This document shows, piece after piece, positions 2,209-11,652 of a stretch of 11,652 nucleotides of DNA; position 1 is the first letter of the stretch; each line of letters opens with the position of its first letter. The DNA comes from Stephanodiscus triporus (taxonomy: Eukaryota > Bacillariophyta > Thalassiosirophyceae > Thalassiosirales > Thalassiosiraceae), in NCBI GenBank assembly GCA_036939755.1, contig JALLAZ010000848.1, forward strand, positions 1-11,652, in the 5' to 3' direction. The translations under genes and the position numbers were made by a program. Below the pieces are notes generated by a model. It made no database searches, had not been told where the DNA came from, and saw only the letters and a program-made list of their open reading frames with translations.

Positions 2209-2333
2209 GTTGATGTGAGTGTGATGGGCGGTAAGCATGGACTTATTCAAACGTAGGGTCTTTTGGTGGTTTAAAAAAAAAATGTTTTCTCACAAAGGTC
2301 CAAAAGTCAGGCATCGCATCTTCCTCCGCCGTG
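2209..2333. other. Short intergenic region between the SET gene and the fusion gene
   Basis: Only 125 bases separate the SET stop codon from the next start, so the 3' end of one gene and the promoter of the next are packed together. It contains an A10 run at 2273-2282. No AATAAA signal or TATA box was recognised. Confidence 0.5.
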
Positions 2334-5024
2334 ATGGGATCGGGGGTATCGAAAGCCACGGATGCAATGGGTCGTAGTATTGTTGACCCAATGGGTCTTT
2401 TCCCCAAAAAGGGAGGTGCACTTTCGATGAAAAAGAGGATTCAGTATCTCAAAGAAACTCCTTTCTTTCAGTATCTTACGCCGGAAACGATTGACGAATT
2501 CGCACGTTGCTTCACTCAAACAAAAAGAGCGAAACCTGGAAAGAGCATATTGCTAGACGCTCATAAGGTTTACGTTGTGTGCGAGGGAGAAGTTGATCTC
2601 AGCACTTCGTTCCCCGAAGAAGGATCGAAGCTTGAAACCAGGGGTTATTTGTGCAGGAAACGTCGTGGTGACATAGTGAATGTCTGCCAAACAAAGCAAG
2701 ACGTACAACGTCGAATGAATGTCAAGAAAATGAAGGAGCTTGCTGAGGACATAATGACGGTAGGCGGTGGAGATACTGAGATTCTTCTCCTCTGCGGGGA
2801 CGTGGGTGCCTTGGAGAATTTCAGCAATGCCCATCCCGAACTGTCAAAGCCGATTGTTGAAATTTGTTCATCACAAATCGAGGATAGATTGCTATCAGTG
2901 CCATTCCTTCGCGAAATATCCAAGTCCAAGCTAAGCGTTTTGGCGGCAATGTGCCGCTACGAAGCCTTTGAATCAGGTCAGATAGTGTTTGAGGAAGACA
3001 GTGACGCGGACAAACTCTTCTTGGTCCTCAGTGGCGTCGCGCAGGTGGTGGCGAAGCCTGAACTCGCGCCATCCATCCGTAGCATACCATCTGAGTCATC
3101 ACAGGCCATATCAGAGCAAGCGGTGGCATTGAGACGATCTTTGGAGTGCAGCTGCGATAGAAAGGCTATACTGGAACGCATAGACGTACCGCTTGTCCCG
3201 ATTGCCGAGCTTAAGAGCGGAGACTACTTTGGAGAAACAGCTTTGGTATTCAATATAGCCCGAACATGTGGCGTTAAAACAGCGGAAAAGTGTCTTTTTT
3301 TGACAGTACACAAGACTGATTTTGAGAACTTTCTCAAAATCTGTCCAATCGAGGAGTCGCTAAAGAGAGTAATCAAGCAAAGAATGGTGTCTAAGTTGTC
3401 GTCTTTGGGAATTCCATTCTTGCAGGGAATTCCAGAGGAAATGCTCTCCACCCTGGCTTCTTCTGTGTCGATAAATGAGGTCCCACAAGACCACGTTATA
3501 TTCAATCAAGGAGATGTTGGCGATCATTTTTACATCATTGTCCACGGTAGCGTCAAGGTGGAGACGAAGCACACTCCCGAAGATGAAACAAATAACGACA
3601 TTGATGAAAACGGAGATAGAGCTGATCAGACAGCCACGGGAGACTTTCTCGGTTCACTTGGACCTGGGCAGTATTTTGGAGAAATGTCACTCGTTAGCAC
3701 CAACTGTCATTTGAGATCAGCCACGGTCACTTCAACTCAAAAATCAATTTTACTCAGCACAGACAAGGAGAGTTTCCTTAAACTGTTCGGCCCCTGCAAC
3801 AACATACGCGCCGAATTCGAGCTCAGATTACTGAAGAGCTCGGCGACGCTAAAGCAACTACTTGCACATCCCCTAGGAGCAGCTTCGTTCAGGGAGTTCC
3901 TCGAAGCTGAGCATGCAGGGGAGAACATCGACTTTTGGCTTGTGGCGAATGACTTCCGGAACAATAGAGGAGATGACTCGGAAAAAAGAAGGGAACAGGC
4001 CAAGCAAATCTTTACGACATTTTGTGCCGAATTTGCTGACAGACAAGTGAATCTAGCTCATACAATGCTAGCAGAAATCAACGCTAGACTAAACAGAGAC
4101 AACGAGGTCACACCTGATTTGTTCGACGCGGCGATGCAGGAAGTTTATCGGCTGATGGAAAAAGATAAATTTGTAAGATACAAAAAATCAAACACTTTCA
4201 AGTCCTTCTTGGCGCGATTAGGGATCCTGTCGCCGCCATGCAAGGGTGCCATGACTACACCAAAGGTGAAACGTGCGACTCTCGAATCAATGAAGAAAGA
4301 TGTGGCGATCGAAAGGGTTCACAACGGAAGTGTCGCAATTCCAACATGTTCCGAAAAAGACTGCGCAAAGATGGTGGCGCCCAAGTTAATCATCGCAGGA
4401 GCACCAGCCAGCGGAAAGGGGACACAATGCGAACTGATAAAACAAAAGTATGGCGTCGTCCACCTGAGTACGGGAGATATGCTCCGCGCTGCCGTCGCGG
4501 CCGGTACCGATGTGGGGAAAAGGGCGAAGGATTTCATTGATGCAGGGAAGCTGGTTCCCGACGAGGTGATTATTGGAGTCGTCAAAGAGAGAATGCTTGC
4601 GCGGGACTGCGTGGAATCAGGCTGGCTCCTCGATGGCTTCCCTCGCACGCCCGCCCAAGCGAAGTCTCTCGCAGACGCTGGCATTTCCGCCGATTGCTTT
4701 ATCTTTCTTAACGTTCCCGACGATATTCTTGTAGAACGTGTCGTAGGGCGCCGGACTGACCCTGTCTCTGGTAAAATTTACCACATGAAATTCAACCCCC
4801 CGAAGGATGAGGAGATTCTTGCACGTTTGGTTCAAAGATCGGATGATACCGAGGAAAAGGTAAAGGTCCGACTAGAGCAGTTCCATTTGAATGTTGCGGC
4901 AGTTAAGGGAAGTTATACGGATATCGCCATTGAGGTCGATGGTACTAAAAAGCCAGAGGAGGTTTCGGTAATGATAATGAAGTCTATTGATGGTATGCTT
5001 GGTGCGAGTCGTGGTCTAGCCTAA
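2334..5024 (+). CDS. Cyclic-nucleotide-binding (x3) - RGS - adenylate kinase fusion protein
   Basis: A single 896-codon exon. The ATG at 2334 (G at -3 and +4) gives an N-terminus M-G-S-G-V-S-K, a good N-myristoylation signal. Domains in order: a degenerate CNB-like module (about 35-180, no FGE motif); CNB2 (about 186-335) with FGETALVFNIART, Glu301/Arg310 and a roughly 50-residue insertion at 240-289; CNB3 (about 358-490) with FGEMSLV and LRSATV, Glu450/Arg461 and an acidic loop near 411-427; an RGS domain (about 507-630) with GENIDFW at 529-535 and RYKKSNTFKSFL near its end; a linker (631-679); and adenylate kinase (680-896) with P-loop GAPASGKGT at 689-697, LSTGDMLR at 711-718, DGFPRT at 767-772, a long-type LID from GRRTDP at 805 and LID arginines 831 and 835. 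The LID has no zinc cysteines. Inferred role: a cAMP/cGMP-responsive Galpha GAP coupled to AMP + ATP = 2 ADP chemistry. The domain calls are firm; how they work together is not. Confidence 0.93.
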   Translation: MGSGVSKATDAMGRSIVDPMGLFPKKGGALSMKKRIQYLKETPFFQYLTPETIDEFARCFTQTKRAKPGKSILLDAHKVYVVCEGEVDLSTSFPEEGSKLETRGYLCRKRRGDIVNVCQTKQDVQRRMNVKKMKELAEDIMTVGGGDTEILLLCGDVGALENFSNAHPELSKPIVEICSSQIEDRLLSVPFLREISKSKLSVLAAMCRYEAFESGQIVFEEDSDADKLFLVLSGVAQVVAKPELAPSIRSIPSESSQAISEQAVALRRSLECSCDRKAILERIDVPLVPIAELKSGDYFGETALVFNIARTCGVKTAEKCLFLTVHKTDFENFLKICPIEESLKRVIKQRMVSKLSSLGIPFLQGIPEEMLSTLASSVSINEVPQDHVIFNQGDVGDHFYIIVHGSVKVETKHTPEDETNNDIDENGDRADQTATGDFLGSLGPGQYFGEMSLVSTNCHLRSATVTSTQKSILLSTDKESFLKLFGPCNNIRAEFELRLLKSSATLKQLLAHPLGAASFREFLEAEHAGENIDFWLVANDFRNNRGDDSEKRREQAKQIFTTFCAEFADRQVNLAHTMLAEINARLNRDNEVTPDLFDAAMQEVYRLMEKDKFVRYKKSNTFKSFLARLGILSPPCKGAMTTPKVKRATLESMKKDVAIERVHNGSVAIPTCSEKDCAKMVAPKLIIAGAPASGKGTQCELIKQKYGVVHLSTGDMLRAAVAAGTDVGKRAKDFIDAGKLVPDEVIIGVVKERMLARDCVESGWLLDGFPRTPAQAKSLADAGISADCFIFLNVPDDILVERVVGRRTDPVSGKIYHMKFNPPKDEEILARLVQRSDDTEEKVKVRLEQFHLNVAAVKGSYTDIAIEVDGTKKPEEVSVMIMKSIDGMLGASRGLA

Positions 5025-5097: not shown

Positions 5098-7379
5098 TCA
5101 TGCCTCATTCTTCCACTTGTCCACAAAACGGAAAGTGATCGTATCGTAATCAATCCCCATCCCGTTAGTTCGCAAATGGGGGATGAACTCCGCCTGCATG
5201 GGCCTGCCAACGAAGCGACACAGATTACCCTCCACCCTCTGTTCCTTCACGTGGATGCCGAAAACATCAAAGAACCGCTGAACATCACGGACTTTTCCAA
5301 TCCCATATTTCAATTCATCCGTGCGAATCCAATCATCGCTCGGTGATGTCGACATGTGAATTATCGCGTTGAGCCTGTTCATTCCGTAATTACCGGATCC
5401 TTTGTATATGTTGCTATTTTCCCAAAACAACGGGACACCGTGTCTTCCATAGTAATGATAGCACGCCTGCCTTTCGGGAGTGTAGTAGTCGTAGCCATAT
5501 CTGCCGCACAACGGATGGAGACGTCGATGAATGGCGAGAATGACGTGAGCACGAGGCACGATAAATGTGACACACGACAGAAGACCATTCGAATGCACAC
5601 AAAAACCGATCGAGGAGAAGTGAACGGTCATCAACTAACTCACGAGAAGCCCCTGAGGCCGATAGATATCTCCTCTCCCTGGAATATCCATGGCAGGTGC
5701 TGATCGTACGGGACGTTCACCACGAAGTGACCCCTCCCGAACGAGAATCCCGCCGCCCAGAACGGCTCGATCGTTGGCATGTCGTGTATGTACGGCTCCC
5801 CCTCCGGCTGCTGCCCGTGTCGCAGGTGCCTCGTGCCGGCACTGCCGTCGCCCTCGAAGTCGCTCATGCACATGATCGGACGATTCTTCGACGTTCGCAC
5901 TCCGGACTCGACGTCGACGTGATCCTCCGTCCCGGAGACGTACGCCGTGAGTATCGCCATCTCGTTCCCGGCCGAACGCCACTGGTCGATTATCTCGTCG
6001 TCCCACCCGTTCACGTACTCGACGTGCGCGTCCGACTGCATCGCGAAGTACTCCCCGCGGTACATCCGATGGCCGAGATGTCGCGCGAATACGGGCCCGA
6101 CGGAAAGCCCGGCGTCGACCGTGAGGTAATCTATCCGCGACGCGTGGACGCAGGCGGCCTGGTCGGGGTACGTCGCGCACGCGCCGCGGGGCGGCGCGGA
6201 GCAAGAAGCGTCGACGCCGGATCGGACTTGATCGACGACGCCGACCCTCACCCTCTCGGGATGATTCGCGCGCGAGAATATGGATTCGACCGTGCGCGAG
6301 CACTGAAAGTCGCGATACGACGCAATGGCCACGAATATCGTATCGAGTCGACGATCGTCCGCGCCGCCGCCGCCGTCGCTGCCCGGCGACGATACGTCGG
6401 GCGGCACGACGCGGCTGCCCACGGACCTCGCCTCGAACGGCGTCATCAGACGCGAGCCGTAGTCGCCGAGGTACCGGCGCACGCCGCTTCGGCCGTCGCT
6501 CCCGTCGTCGTCCCCGCGGTCCGCCCCCCCCCGACTCCCCCCCCGTCGCTCTCGCTCGTCGGCGATCATTCCGTACGGAGGCGGATCCCAGAATTTGGGC
6601 ACCCTCATGTAATATGCTCCGCCGCCGTCCCTTTTTTTCTCCCCCTCCTTCTCTTTCTCCTCCGCCCCGCTCTCCCCTTTCGGCCGCTTGCCTCCGGACA
6701 GGACCCTCGCCAGTTCCCTCGCGGTCACGGGCGTCTTCTTTCGTCGTGTCTCCCCCTCCTCCTCCGTCTTCCTCTTCTTCATCATGCCCCCCGGCGTATC
6801 CTCCCCCCTCCCCTCCTTCCCCCCCCCGAAGATCCTCATGACCTCGGCGGCTGGATGCTCGATAGATTCCCAATCGTCACTCGCGCCGTCGACGTCCGTA
6901 CCGATCGACGACAGGAAACGATTCAGCTCGACGCGATAAGCGAGCATTATCGACGGCTCGTATTCCATCATGACCGCGGGAGGCGCGTTGTCGGGCGGCC
7001 TCGGCGGGAGGGGGGGAAGGCGAGGGTCGCCGCCAAGTCGAAGGGATTTCGCCGCCGACGACGAGGACGAGTACGACGATCCGCCGTCGTCGTCACCACA
7101 ACCACCACCACCACCGGGGAGGAGGACGAGTACGACCAGGAGAAATAATAATATCGCGACGAGACAGAATCCCACGACGGCGACGACGGCGGCGGCGATC
7201 TTGCCGACGACGGGGGTGGCGCTCCTCCTCCTCCTCGTGGGTCGAAGTCGTCGTCGTCGTCCAGCGGCATCGCGCGCATGATCGACGACGACCGATAGCC
7301 CCCTCGCGGCGGTCGCGTCGTCGTGATCGTGATCGTGATCGTCGTCGTCCGCCGACGTAGCGATCATTGTTGTTTGCAT
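5098..7379 (-). CDS. Type II membrane glycosyltransferase, GlcNAc-transferase (PF11397 / Skp1-GnT, GT60-like) family
   Basis: Two exons, 7379-5644 and 5500-5098, join at TC|A into about 712 residues. The cytosolic N-terminus has an Asp/His repeat (11-21) and a basic cluster (41-52). One transmembrane helix follows at about 61-87, giving Golgi-type type II topology by the positive-inside rule. A long low-complexity, charged stem (about 88-340) precedes the catalytic domain from D346 (DTIFVAIASYRDFQC). Supporting motifs are AMQSDAHVEYVNGWDDEI (446-463, with a D-x-H metal-binding-like site at D450/H452) and PFWAAGFSFGRG. Splicing joins SIGLRGFS to YGYDYYTPERQACYHYYGR, and the end contains YGIGKVRDV, all typical of this family. 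Family members transfer GlcNAc, the best studied onto hydroxyproline of Skp1 in the cytosol; the predicted membrane anchor argues for a secretory-pathway acceptor instead. Stem homopolymers (G/C runs near 6526 and 6817) make that part the least certain. It is convergent with the fusion gene and divergent from the dehydrogenase. Confidence 0.88.
5501..5643 (-). other. Intron of the glycosyltransferase gene (143 bases, phase 2)
   Basis: On the - strand the donor is GTGAGT (5643 downward) and the acceptor is GTGCGGCAG ending at 5501. Retention would give a TGA directly after GFS. Removal rebuilds the GFS-YGYDYYTP join expected for GlcNAc-transferases. Confidence 0.88.
7318..7349. repeat. GTGATC/GTC tandem repeat coding an Asp/His tract
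   Basis: About three copies of GTGATC followed by GTC triplets. On the - strand it encodes the D/H run near residues 11-21 of the glycosyltransferase. This is a length-variable type of coding microsatellite. Confidence 0.75.
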
Positions 7380-7687
7380 GTCGGTCGTCTCGACGTCGTC
7401 ATCGACAAAAAGGCCACGCCGTTTTCGATTCGCCTTCGCCTCGGCGGGGGACGGGAGGCCGACGGGCCGTAGACGTCGTCGCCCCCCTCCGCCATCGTCA
7501 TTATTTTTCTTTCGGCGCGCGGATCTTATTAATTTTCCCGGGGTAAAGAGAGCACCAGCATCGGCTCCGAGTCACATCGTTCCCGCCTTTTTGATGTATC
7601 TCTGCGGCCGGGCGGGCGGGCGGGTTTCTGGGGAGACGTGCCGAAATGAGAACACGCTGAACCCCTCAGCATAAAGTCATTATTATT
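7380..7687. promoter_or_regulatory. Shared divergent promoter region (glycosyltransferase / D-lactate dehydrogenase)
   Basis: These 308 bases separate the start codons of two divergent genes, so both promoters and 5' leaders must sit here or overlap the genes. Two GACGTC palindromes (7392-7397 and 7472-7477), a TTATTAATTTT stretch near 7527-7537 and a (GGGC)n tract are visible. The dehydrogenase ATG at 7688 has A at -3 and G at +4. An ORF beginning at 7378 crosses the region but has no recognisable domain. Core promoter elements could not be fixed. Confidence 0.55.
7610..7624 (+). repeat. Perfect G-quadruplex motif (G3C)3G3
   Basis: Four GGG tracts at 7610-7612, 7614-7616, 7618-7620 and 7622-7624 are separated by single C bases. 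They lie 63 bases upstream of the dehydrogenase ATG on its coding strand. It can equally be read as overlapping GC boxes. Confidence 0.7.
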
Positions 7688-10098
7688 ATGGCGACCTCCA
7701 TCCTGGCAACCTCAGCCATCGCCCGCAGGCTGGCGCCTCTACGGGCCGCCACCCGATCATCGCTCTCGAGGACATTCTCCTCCTCCTCCTCCTCCTACTC
7801 CGCCAATTCCGATCGCGCCAAAGGCTCGACCGCCGGGCCGGATCGACTGTCGCTCCGGCCATCCACCGCCCTGACCATCGCCATCGCATCCCTCCTCGGA
7901 GGTTATTTCCTCGGCTCGTCGCATTCCGAACGATGGGACGAAATGAACAAGAATCGCGAGCTGCCGAGGGGCGAGCCGAGCGGGTGCTGTTCGTGCGACG
8001 ATGACGACGACGACGACGACGGCGGCGGCCTCGGCGCGACTACTACGACGACCGCCGCTGCCGCTGCCGCCGCCGGGGAGGAGGCTCCTCGATTCGCCAA
8101 AGCGCGAGCGGAGCTCGTTTCGAAGTTGGTCAAAATCGTCGGGAGGGATCACGTATTCGACGGTACGACGGAAGGTGGGGGCGGGAGGAGTTCTCGATTC
8201 CTCACGGGCGCGAGGTTGGGACGTGGAAGGGCGCTTTGCATCGTGCAGCCGGGGACGGTGCGGGAGGCGGTGAGGTGCCTGCAGGAGATCGTCGACGCGG
8301 GATGCGTCGTGTTGCCCCAGGGGAGTAATACGGGTTTGACGGGAGGGTGAGAGTCGTTCCCTTCTTCCCCTTCCCATGATATATGTTATGTTTGGCGTTT
8401 GACGCGGCGTGTGGCTTGATCATTTTTGCATGCGTCGTTCCCTACTACTTATATTATTATCCCCCCCCCCCACCCCCCCGACAGATCGGTCCCGAGAAAC
8501 GACACCCCGGATACTCGTCCTGCCGTCGTCCTGTCGATGAAGCGCCTCGACGCGCACTTCCCCATCGACGACGGCAATCGTGTCGTATGTCTCGCCGGCT
8601 GTGGCATTTCCACGCTCGCCTCTTCCATCAAGTCTTGGTTCCCAAATCGCGAATCTCACTCCATATTGGGCAGCACCTTCTTGAATCCCACCACCGCCGC
8701 CGGGGTCGCGTTGGGCAGTGGCGGCACGTACGTTAGGAAGGGACCCGCGAGGACCGATCGCGCGTTGTACTGCAGGGTGTCGAGGAATAAATGGGGCGAG
8801 AACGTAGTGACGGTCGTGAACACCCTAGGCGTGAGGGGGTTGGAGGATTCCGACTTTCAGGATCACTCCGGAGAAGATGCAGTGGGAAGATTGGACGCGT
8901 ACGCCACCGACGTCCGACAGGGATTCAGGCGCGCGATGGGAGAATCTTCCACCTCGATTCACGGCCGGGCGCAATCGAGTGATTCGAACTACGCCGATGC
9001 CGTGTGCAGGAGCACGAAGCGAGTGAGCCGGTACAATGCGGATACTACCGGAGAGGACTGCAATCGATCGGAGGGCAAGGTGGTGATATTGGCAACGGTC
9101 CACGACACCTTTCCAGTACCGGAGAGGAATCGCGTGTTCTGGATTTCCTTTCCCGATCTGGAGACGACGTTGGCATTTCGAAGGGAGGTCTGCCTGAACA
9201 ACCCAAAGGACTTGCCTATTTCGTGCGAATACTTGGACAGAGATTCCGTGGACATAATCGACCGATCCGGGAGGATAAGTGCGCACTTAATTCGATACTT
9301 GGGCATGGGAGATATCATGGGTTTCCTATGGGATATTAAAGTTCGGATATCAACCCTTCCCTTTTCGTGGGCCCCATTACTTAGTGATAAGCTGTTGTAC
9401 ATGTTTAATGACTGGGTACCCGAGGCCATCCCTAAAAAATTCATGACCGCTGGGAAGCAATGGGATCATCATTGTTTGGTTTCGGTAGGAGAATTCGGGG
9501 ATGGTACGCTGGATCGGTTCGTCGGCAGAATGAATGAGTTTGTCAAGAAGCGCAATGAAAAAGTAGATGTGGGTGGAAAAATAGTGTCCGTCGTGGAAGC
9601 CGAATCGCCATCAGAGATTGACGCATTGAATGCCTTTCGATTTGTTGCCGCTCTCGCTTTCAAGACGTATTGCGTCGGTGAAGACATTCAAGGAATAAGT
9701 CTTGATTATGCCTTGCCTTTGAATGGAGGCCTTGTGCCTCCACTGCCCACCTCCGCAGCTACACCTGTGAAGCGAATGAGGTATTCTCATTTTGGATGCA
9801 ACGTGGTGCATGAGGATGTTGCTTATCCATTGGGAGTGGATACCCATAAAGAGAAGATGTTATTGAAGCGTGTTGTTGAGGAGCAAGGTGGGAAATTGCC
9901 AGCGGAGCAGTAAGTGCATTTATTCATACTGTCGATGTAACCCACATACTATTCTCACTTCATTCTTCTCGCAGTGGCCATGGTACAGAATATCATGCGC
10001 CTTTGGCTACCCAAAAGAGATGGATGGCCATGGATCCATTGAATGTATTGAACCCTGGCATAGGTGGATTGTCAACTCTGCCCAAGTACGGCAAGTGA
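7688..10098 (+). CDS. dld: FAD-dependent respiratory D-lactate dehydrogenase, bacterial Dld type, mitochondrial
   Basis: Three exons, 7688-8346, 8485-9909 and 9975-10098, give 735 residues; E. coli Dld has 571. The enzyme oxidises D-lactate to pyruvate and passes electrons to quinone. Residues 1-40 are rich in Arg/Ser/Ala with few acids, like a mitochondrial presequence. About 60-76 is a short hydrophobic anchor, then an Asp8 run (104-111) and Thr/Ala-rich linker. The FAD-binding (PF01565) part holds PQGSNTGLTGG, completed across intron 1 by SVPRNDTPDTRP, and HSILGSTFLNPTTAAGVALG, SGGTYVRKGPARTD. The Dld membrane/substrate domain (PF09330) follows with SRYNAD, HLIRYLGMGDIM, HFGCNVVHEDVAYPLGVD, and, across intron 2, PAEHGHGTEYHAP, DPLNVLNPGIG. 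A Ser/Asp-rich insertion lies near SSTSIHGRAQSSD. The presequence-plus-anchor layout suggests an inner-membrane protein facing the intermembrane space (inference). The ATG at 8426 is intronic and not a start. Homology is firm, localisation is predicted. Confidence 0.9.
7994..8020. repeat. GAC/GAT triplet repeat coding Asp8
   Basis: A run of GAC/GAT codons in exon 1 of the dehydrogenase encodes eight aspartates just after the hydrophobic anchor. Threonine and alanine homopolymer stretches follow, forming a low-complexity linker before the FAD domain. Confidence 0.8.
8347..8484 (+). other. D-lactate dehydrogenase intron 1 (138 bases, phase 2, C-rich acceptor tract)
   Basis: The donor is GTGAGA at 8347 and the acceptor ACAG ends at 8484. 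The polypyrimidine tract is almost pure C: C11 at 8461-8471, one A, then C7 at 8473-8479. Splicing restores NTGLTGG-SVPRND of the FAD domain; retention gives TGA at 8348-8350. Confidence 0.88.
9910..9974 (+). other. D-lactate dehydrogenase intron 2 (65 bases, phase 2)
   Basis: The donor is GTAAGT at 9910 and the acceptor TCTCGCAG ends at 9974. Splicing rebuilds PAEH|GHGTEY, the histidine-containing C-terminal motif of Dld, and the frame ends at TGA 10096-10098. Confidence 0.88.
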
Positions 10099-10878: not shown

Positions 10879-11609
10879 TTAGTCGATTTTGTATAGGACC
10901 TTCCCTTTACTCTTCCCCGCCTCCAAATAAATATGCCCCTCGGCCGCCTGGTCCAACGGGAACGCACGGTCCACGCTGACGTTCAGCTTTCCCTCCTTCA
11001 GCCAGCCGAAGACCTCGTCCGCCCTCGAAACCAGCTCGGCGCGGTCAACGGTATAGTCCAACAATTTCGGACGCGTGACGTACGCCGACTTCCCTATCAG
11101 GCGGAGGACGGGGAACGCGGGCACGGCGCCGCTGGCGTTACCGAAGGAGATGAATATCCCGCGATGGGCCAGGGAGTTGATGCTGATGTCCACGGTGGAC
11201 TTGCCGATGCCGTCGATGACGGCCTTGCACCCCTTCCCGTCCGTCACCTCCATGACGCGCGTGACGATGTCCGCGGACTCGTAATCCTCGTACGACGCCC
11301 CCGGGACCTCGTCGAGAACTATGAGCTCGTCGCACCCGAGCGCGCTAGCGACGTCGGCCTTGCCCTTGGAGCACGTGCCGATGACCTTGAACCCGCGAAG
11401 CTTGGCCATCTGCGCGGCCCACTGGCACGTGCCCCCCCCGACGCCGTGGATGAGGCACCACTCGCCGGGCCGTATCAGGCCCGCGTGCGCCGAGGTCGTC
11501 AGGTAGTGGGCTGTCAGGCCCTGGACTACGCACGAGGTCGCGACGTCTAGGCCCACGCCCTCCGGCACGGGCAGGAGCTTCGCCGCCGGCACGGCCGTGT
11601 ACTGCGCGT
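10879..11609 (-). CDS. NADPH:quinone oxidoreductase (QOR/zeta-crystallin, MDR superfamily), 3'-terminal exon, partial
   Basis: The last exon reads from 11609 down to TAA at 10881-10879 and encodes 242 residues. Family members have about 320-340, so some 80-100 N-terminal residues lie in exons outside the window. It opens with AQYTAVPAAKLLPVPEG, aligning to the end of the catalytic fold. A nucleotide-binding Rossmann segment follows (LIHGVGGGTCQWAAQMAK, then GFKVIGTCSKGKADVASALG). GIFISFGNASGAV and AYVTRP are characteristic of the QorA branch, and FPLDQAAEGHIYLEAGKSKGK is the usual C-terminus. No structural zinc cysteine cluster is visible in this part. By family it performs NADPH-dependent reduction of quinones, probably in the cytosol; plastid or mitochondrial targeting cannot be judged without the N-terminus. 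A GTG at 11592 is not a start, because the conserved frame continues upstream to a splice acceptor. Confidence 0.85.
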
Positions 11610-11652
11610 CTGTTGGGCGTTTTGGAGAAAGGACAACGGGGGGGGGCGTGGG
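11610..11652 (-). other. 3' end of an intron in the quinone oxidoreductase gene (runs off the window)
   Basis: On the - strand a C9 tract (G run 11638-11646 on +), then TCCTTTCTCC and CCCAACAG end at 11610. The exon continues as AC|GCG|CAG, so this acceptor is phase 1. If the missing base is T, the codon is Tyr, giving the family-like YAQY. The donor is outside the window. Confidence 0.7.

Follow-up and report, generated by a model that had tools for sequence, protein, structure and literature searches.

A diatom protein joining cyclic-nucleotide-binding modules, an RGS domain and a plastid-type adenylate kinase

The classical RGS proteins RGS2, RGS3, RGS4 and RGS10 contain neither cyclic-nucleotide-binding (CNB) modules nor an adenylate kinase (ADK) domain, while the regulatory region of cGMP-dependent protein kinase I has tandem CNB modules with an Arg-Thr cassette, but drives a protein kinase and not an RGS domain. 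N-myristoylated adenylate kinases, AK1-beta and Plasmodium AK2, have been proposed to act at membranes (PMC2680645); they have no signalling domains and represent a different ADK copy. Among diatoms, a complete RGS was reported in Thalassiosira pseudonana only, and not in Pseudo-nitzschia, Phaeodactylum or Fragilariopsis (PMC3727952, Port 2013), and the terms “cyclic nucleotide” and “adenylate kinase” have 0 occurrences in the accessible main text of that paper. Here, we describe a protein encoded at positions 2334–5024 on the forward strand of an 11,652-nucleotide stretch of Stephanodiscus triporus DNA (contig JALLAZ010000848.1, assembly GCA_036939755.1; hereafter, the window), in which CNB modules, an RGS domain and an ADK follow one another on a single chain. 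To our knowledge, no characterised protein links cyclic-nucleotide gating to RGS in one chain. Literature searches for CNB-RGS-ADK, or for CNB with RGS in Thalassiosira, found none in the papers within reach, which left out most subscription papers, and further papers, searched by title and by the start of the abstract, held none on such a fusion. We consider it an even call that the protein is a membrane-tethered, cyclic-nucleotide-gated (cGMP-type) GTPase-activating protein (GAP) for G-alpha that has gained a C-terminal ADK for local adenylate buffering.

Architecture and conservation of the fused protein

The forward-strand frame at 2235–5024 comprises 929 open codons and encodes 896 residues from its first ATG at 2334, followed by a stop codon; no intron was seen in this open frame, and four full-length relatives have the same order. 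The protein starts with MGSGVSK (2334–2354), an N-myristoylation-type start (Gly2, Ser6) that recurs in the family. It is followed by module 1 (residues 30–185; 2421–2888), a degenerate CNB fold, by CNB-A (residues 186–352; 2889–3389), which has an internal insert and a phosphate-binding cassette at residues ≈298–316 (YFGETALVFNIARTCGVKT), and by CNB-B (residues 353–485; 3390–3788), with its cassette at residues ≈446–467 (FGEMSLV...LRSATV). The RGS domain (residues 505–626; 3846–4211) is connected through a poorly conserved linker of 50 residues (residues 632–681; 4227–4376) to the ADK domain (residues 682–880; 4377–4973), and the coding sequence ends with a short variable tail and the stop codon (4974–5024), 31–44% identical to the other four fused proteins. 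Pfam matches on the protein come in the order cNMP_binding, RGS, ADK, each far over its cut-off, and the same scan found no cyclase or phosphodiesterase domain in the 896 residues.

All three domain types were present in four proteins (P0002, P0003, P0004 and P0005) among the best 120 of 159 relatives of the window protein. These four have the same order and are 77–80% identical to it over 99–100% of its length. (Each set of relatives was drawn from ≈8000 scored candidates within a length limit, and absence from a set proves little.) P0004, from Cyclostephanos tholiformis, lies on a 420-kb contig and has the UniRef name “Adenylate kinase”; its gene model may be a prediction, and how it was made could not be learned from PMC12159174, which describes diatom genome annotation. 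Identity to the four relatives was 87–89% in the ADK, 83–89% in CNB-A, 78–83% in module 1, 74–81% in CNB-B and 73–80% in the RGS domain, compared to 42–62% in the linker, for which the predicted structure has a predicted local distance difference test score (pLDDT) below 50 across residues 638–683. The ADK is at least as conserved as the other domains while the linker drifts, as would be expected of a fusion that is translated and under selection.

We considered the possibility that two genes had been misread as one, through read-through, a hidden intron or an assembly join. The linker is indeed variable, both halves occur separately elsewhere, and the listing of open frames is favoured by length limits and gene callers. 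However, the frame is unbroken, the order is repeated in four other proteins, one of them from a named species and a long contig, and no YAG acceptor for an intron was found inside the linker. Together with the conservation pattern, this led us to reject an assembly join or read-through, and the explanation as a whole is highly improbable. A sequence-only reading of this DNA had claimed a single polypeptide with the order CNB-RGS-ADK, and had named separate mRNAs, or a stop or intron hidden by a sequencing error between the RGS and kinase parts, as grounds for refuting it; the claim stood, and a search for relatives recovered the same order. By these comparisons, the joined architecture is genuine and unusual, and an assembly artefact is ruled out.

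The cassettes of CNB-A and CNB-B (FGE...R) were kept in 48 of 48 aligned proteins. Position 311 in CNB-A is Thr in all 48, and position 462 in CNB-B is Ser or Thr in 34. Thr or Ser in a CNB cassette denotes a cGMP-type site, and the motif suggests a cGMP-type ligand preference for both modules, of which the nearest solved relative by sequence is cGMP-dependent protein kinase I. Judging from the cassettes, CNB-A and CNB-B are likely to be competent. At the N-terminus, MGxxx[S/T] at residue 1 is found in the window protein and in 25 of 55 family members (31 of 55 if it is allowed within the first 40 residues), and several of the members without such a start look truncated or late-starting. An N-myristoyltransferase domain was found in the genome, and the protein is probably membrane-bound through N-myristoylation.

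The RGS domain scored 94.9 bits against a Pfam cut-off of 23.9, and RGS2, RGS3, RGS10 and RGS4 were among its best solved matches by sequence. Residues E530, N531, N573, D611 and R615, invariant in all 11 aligned proteins, presumably correspond to E87, N88, N128, D163 and R167 of RGS4, consistent with the alignments to solved RGS proteins. Both the fold and these contact residues are like those of the classical RGS proteins, and the domain is likely to be competent.

The ADK scored 160.3 bits with PF00406 (cut-off, 26.8) and 211.3 with TIGR01351 (cut-off, 168; residues 684–883), while the narrower NCBIfam adenylate kinase equivalog models shown all fell under their own cut-offs, as did the lid model PF05191 (21.7 against 26.6). 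The nearest solved relative by sequence is maize adenylate kinase (1zak, E = 1.6e-72). A first ADK set, chosen by P-loop pattern and a length filter, had 128 rows (five fused, four coiled-coil and 119 others). After removal of five distant rows, 123 rows gave 116 near-invariant columns, of which the window protein keeps 111; the P-loop is intact and the five changes all lie outside it. The ADK is probably active. In the structure prediction, the ADK part had low pLDDT and was not used, ADK-only rows having been misplaced in the input alignment (the rows checked, P0158 and P0126, had zero overlap with the ADK columns).

The RGS domain and the complete adenylate kinase of the sequence-only reading were thus both upheld. 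Its three CNB-like modules were retained as three folds, two of them with cassettes. Module 1, however, was seen as a CNB fold by structure prediction only, with no Pfam match and no phosphate-binding cassette recognisable by eye, and three competent CNB modules were rejected on these grounds.

Descent of the kinase and its separate relatives

Most of the CNB-RGS relatives (best 120 of 245) have no ADK. Hosts of such unfused proteins among the matches listed are Thalassiosira exigua, T. profunda, Conticribra weissflogii, Cyclotella cryptica, Corethron hystrix and Leptocylindrus danicus, which we take to be non-pennate diatoms without exception. The unfused proteins, mostly ≈600–690 residues long, resemble the window protein in the N-terminus, the CNB modules and the RGS domain (55–68% identity in six aligned), but stop with the RGS domain or within a few dozen residues of its end. 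Because the ADK is absent from most listed relatives, the core CNB-RGS function is probably independent of the kinase. The CNB-RGS combination looks old in diatoms, since it is also found in Corethron and Leptocylindrus. The T. pseudonana RGS gene noted by Port 2013 probably belongs to this unfused family. A connection of CNB-RGS to flagellate sperm is a lead; the accessible main text of three papers on diatom sex (PMC5501676, PMC12618581 and PMC6678668) has no relevant passage on RGS, cyclic nucleotides, adenylate kinase or G-proteins. Distant CNB-RGS and PH-CNB-RGS proteins also exist (P0283 and P0284). P0284 combines a PH domain, three CNB stretches and an RGS domain, possibly an alternative way of targeting CNB-RGS to membranes. 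A shorter CNB-RGS group of ≈450–520 residues was mostly 40–46% identical over about three quarters of the query.

Stand-alone ADKs of ≈285–301 residues are 77–86% identical to the window ADK in the named Thalassiosirales (best 120 of 7890). They have no signalling domains and differ at the N-terminus, where all seven inspected have a signal with an A-F junction, which we take to be of the diatom plastid import type. The Thalassiosirales members (P0158, P0156, P0141 and P0167) are sister to the relocated kinases in the trees. Cyclostephanos holds both a fused (P0004) and a stand-alone (P0158) ADK, and a stand-alone plastid ADK was not found in the present assembly. (Host lineages were looked up for Cyclostephanos, Corethron and Leptocylindrus, and for S. 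triporus with regard to the stand-alone ADK.)

The same relocated ADK is found in four coiled-coil-ADK proteins (P0080, P0081, P0086 and P0087), whose N-terminal part is unrelated and coiled-coil-like. In a tree of 128 ADKs, fused and coiled-coil ADKs formed one clade (100/98), with the stand-alone ADKs of S. triporus, Cyclostephanos and P0163 as its sister (join, 100/87). A reduced tree of 34 ADKs gave the same placement (96/88), although its bootstrap had not settled. In this reduced set, a grouping of Thalassiosirales stand-alone ADKs that excluded the relocated ones was modestly rejected (approximately unbiased test, p-AU = 0.034); the five fused ADKs did not form a single clade in the unconstrained tree, and constraining them together fitted slightly better (p-AU = 0.557). 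Fused and coiled-coil ADKs have E752, K819 and N821 in common; these positions are occupied by D, T and S in at least 80% of the 114 others. From this pattern of descent, the kinase is a copy of a stand-alone plastid-type ADK of the Cyclostephanos/Stephanodiscus lineage, minus its targeting signal, and the fusion is recent.

The coiled-coil host P0086 has 1007 residues, with the ADK at 798–975. A relative of its coiled-coil part occurs in the S. triporus genome (C1279:5733–7289), with 49–52% identity over two stretches. It stops after ...SYISEAVLRLAR, exactly where P0086 continues ...SYISEALHRLSSVESKVAPPKLIIAG into the ADK, and no ADK match was found on that contig. The C1279 gene may never have carried the ADK, or may have lost it. 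On the sequence evidence, one ADK copy either became attached at the C-terminal end of each of two unrelated genes or passed from one of them to the other. Further ADK arrangements were seen in P0010 (1244 residues), where four ADK stretches occur together with two of nucleoside diphosphate kinase, and in P0049 from Nannochloropsis oceanica, in which two ADK stretches are joined to an LrgB-type membrane part; the LrgB family occurs in several of the listed relatives.

Possible roles of the protein and its kinase

For a cyclic-nucleotide-gated GAP with a buffering kinase, the N-myristate would tether the protein to the membrane, cyclic nucleotide on CNB-A and CNB-B would be the input that moves the RGS domain, and the RGS domain would be the output, accelerating GTP hydrolysis on G-alpha. 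An active ADK would buffer AMP, ADP and ATP in a thin sub-membrane layer, and there would be no dedicated line from cAMP to AMP disposal. The architecture, its conservation, the unfused and stand-alone relatives and the descent of the ADK are read from the sequence itself; for the tether-CNB-RGS core, common to the unfused relatives, we infer the role from conserved residues. The closest relative of the ADK is a plastid-type enzyme of metabolism, and the unfused proteins lack the kinase; for these reasons we read it as a local buffer below the membrane, similar to the role proposed for myristoylated AK1-beta (PMC2680645).

The sequence-only reading had instead proposed self-contained signal termination, in which cyclic nucleotide on the CNB modules could control the GAP while the kinase removes AMP locally. 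As a cAMP-off module, this would have the GAP governed by bound cAMP and the ADK clearing AMP released by a nearby phosphodiesterase. CNB, RGS and ADK do share one chain, and the genome contains PDEase_I domains, one of which shares a 1399-residue frame with a cyclase domain (C13:17548–20355). AMP derived from phosphodiesterase has also been discussed as an ADK-linked signal (PMC2680645). However, AMP arises from cAMP and not from cGMP, and an AMP-disposal line would need a cAMP ligand and a phosphodiesterase nearby, whereas the cassettes carry the cGMP-type Thr/Ser, the protein has neither a cyclase nor a phosphodiesterase domain, one CNB module is degenerate, no G-alpha in this genome passed the cut-off, and most listed CNB-RGS relatives dispense with the ADK. 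The proposal was not sustained in its self-contained form, and we consider it unlikely.

Alternatively, the ADK might be a sensor and not a supplier, its lid closure on AMP and ATP relaying the adenylate energy state to the RGS switch. Its position after the RGS domain on the same chain and its conservation, as high as that of any domain, would suit such a role, but the long, low-pLDDT linker makes direct mechanical coupling less likely, and a pure sensor would not need nearly all of the near-invariant columns that are kept. This makes a sensor role quite unlikely.

Several observations weigh against the gated GAP with a buffering kinase. No G-alpha in this assembly scored over the cut-off; the sole weak candidate was rejected as an Arf-like GTPase, with ARL2 as its best solved match. 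G-alpha has been reported in four other diatoms (PMC3727952). The assembly (21.65 Mb in 1324 contigs) is incomplete, since by best NCBIfam match it holds seven of eight CCT subunits, a small yardstick, with gamma missing and two further loci being GroEL. G-alpha or the stand-alone plastid ADK might fall in an assembly gap; for G-alpha this is possible, but given seven of eight CCT subunits it is not our first guess. The ligand preference, moreover, is deduced from the motif only. Finally, two unfused proteins, P0008 and P0009, were placed inside the fused CNB-RGS clade (tree of 49 rows; clade test on 24 rows), and just 1% and 2% of the 200 bootstrap replicates separated the fused five from them. 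Holding the fused five together was not rejected (p-AU = 0.197), and the placement may reflect a single ADK loss or a long-branch effect; a loss would argue against a tight need for the kinase.

Such a loss would also suit an ADK that is a mere passenger, a portable cassette tolerated on two hosts through gene duplication and contributing redundant housekeeping activity only. The presence of the same relocated copy on an unrelated coiled-coil protein, and the C1279 relative that ends without it, point the same way, but the far higher identity of the ADK than of the linker suggests that selection holds the kinase, and we find this explanation rather doubtful. More tentatively than the gated GAP itself, we propose that in one diatom lineage the plastid-type ADK has become a portable C-terminal cassette, without its signal, on at least two unrelated hosts, which in a membrane-bound, cyclic-nucleotide-gated RGS protein would physically couple G-protein shut-off and local adenylate turnover.

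Genomic setting and significance

Domain matches in the genome comprise two RGS, 27 cNMP_binding, 15 cyclase-domain and eight PDEase_I. The second RGS match (C101:9095–9475) has, by eye, a PHD-finger-like Cys/His stretch in frame, and perhaps belongs to a chromatin-type protein. Elsewhere in the window, a forward 537-residue open frame at 595–2208 has no Pfam match and a likeness to SET-type methyltransferases by eye only. A reverse-strand frame at 5640–7571 encodes an N-acetylglucosamine-type glycosyltransferase (PF11397). Two forward frames at 7661–9913, the first without a Pfam match and the second matching PF09330, are by eye perhaps one split D-lactate dehydrogenase gene, and a zinc-binding dehydrogenase on the reverse strand (10879–11652) is truncated at the contig end.

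If CNB gating of the RGS protein is true, two signalling systems are linked within one chain. The fused and unfused relatives constitute a natural experiment on local adenylate turnover at a signalling membrane, and the ADK tail would show that a plastid-type metabolic enzyme was recruited to signalling through gene fusion.
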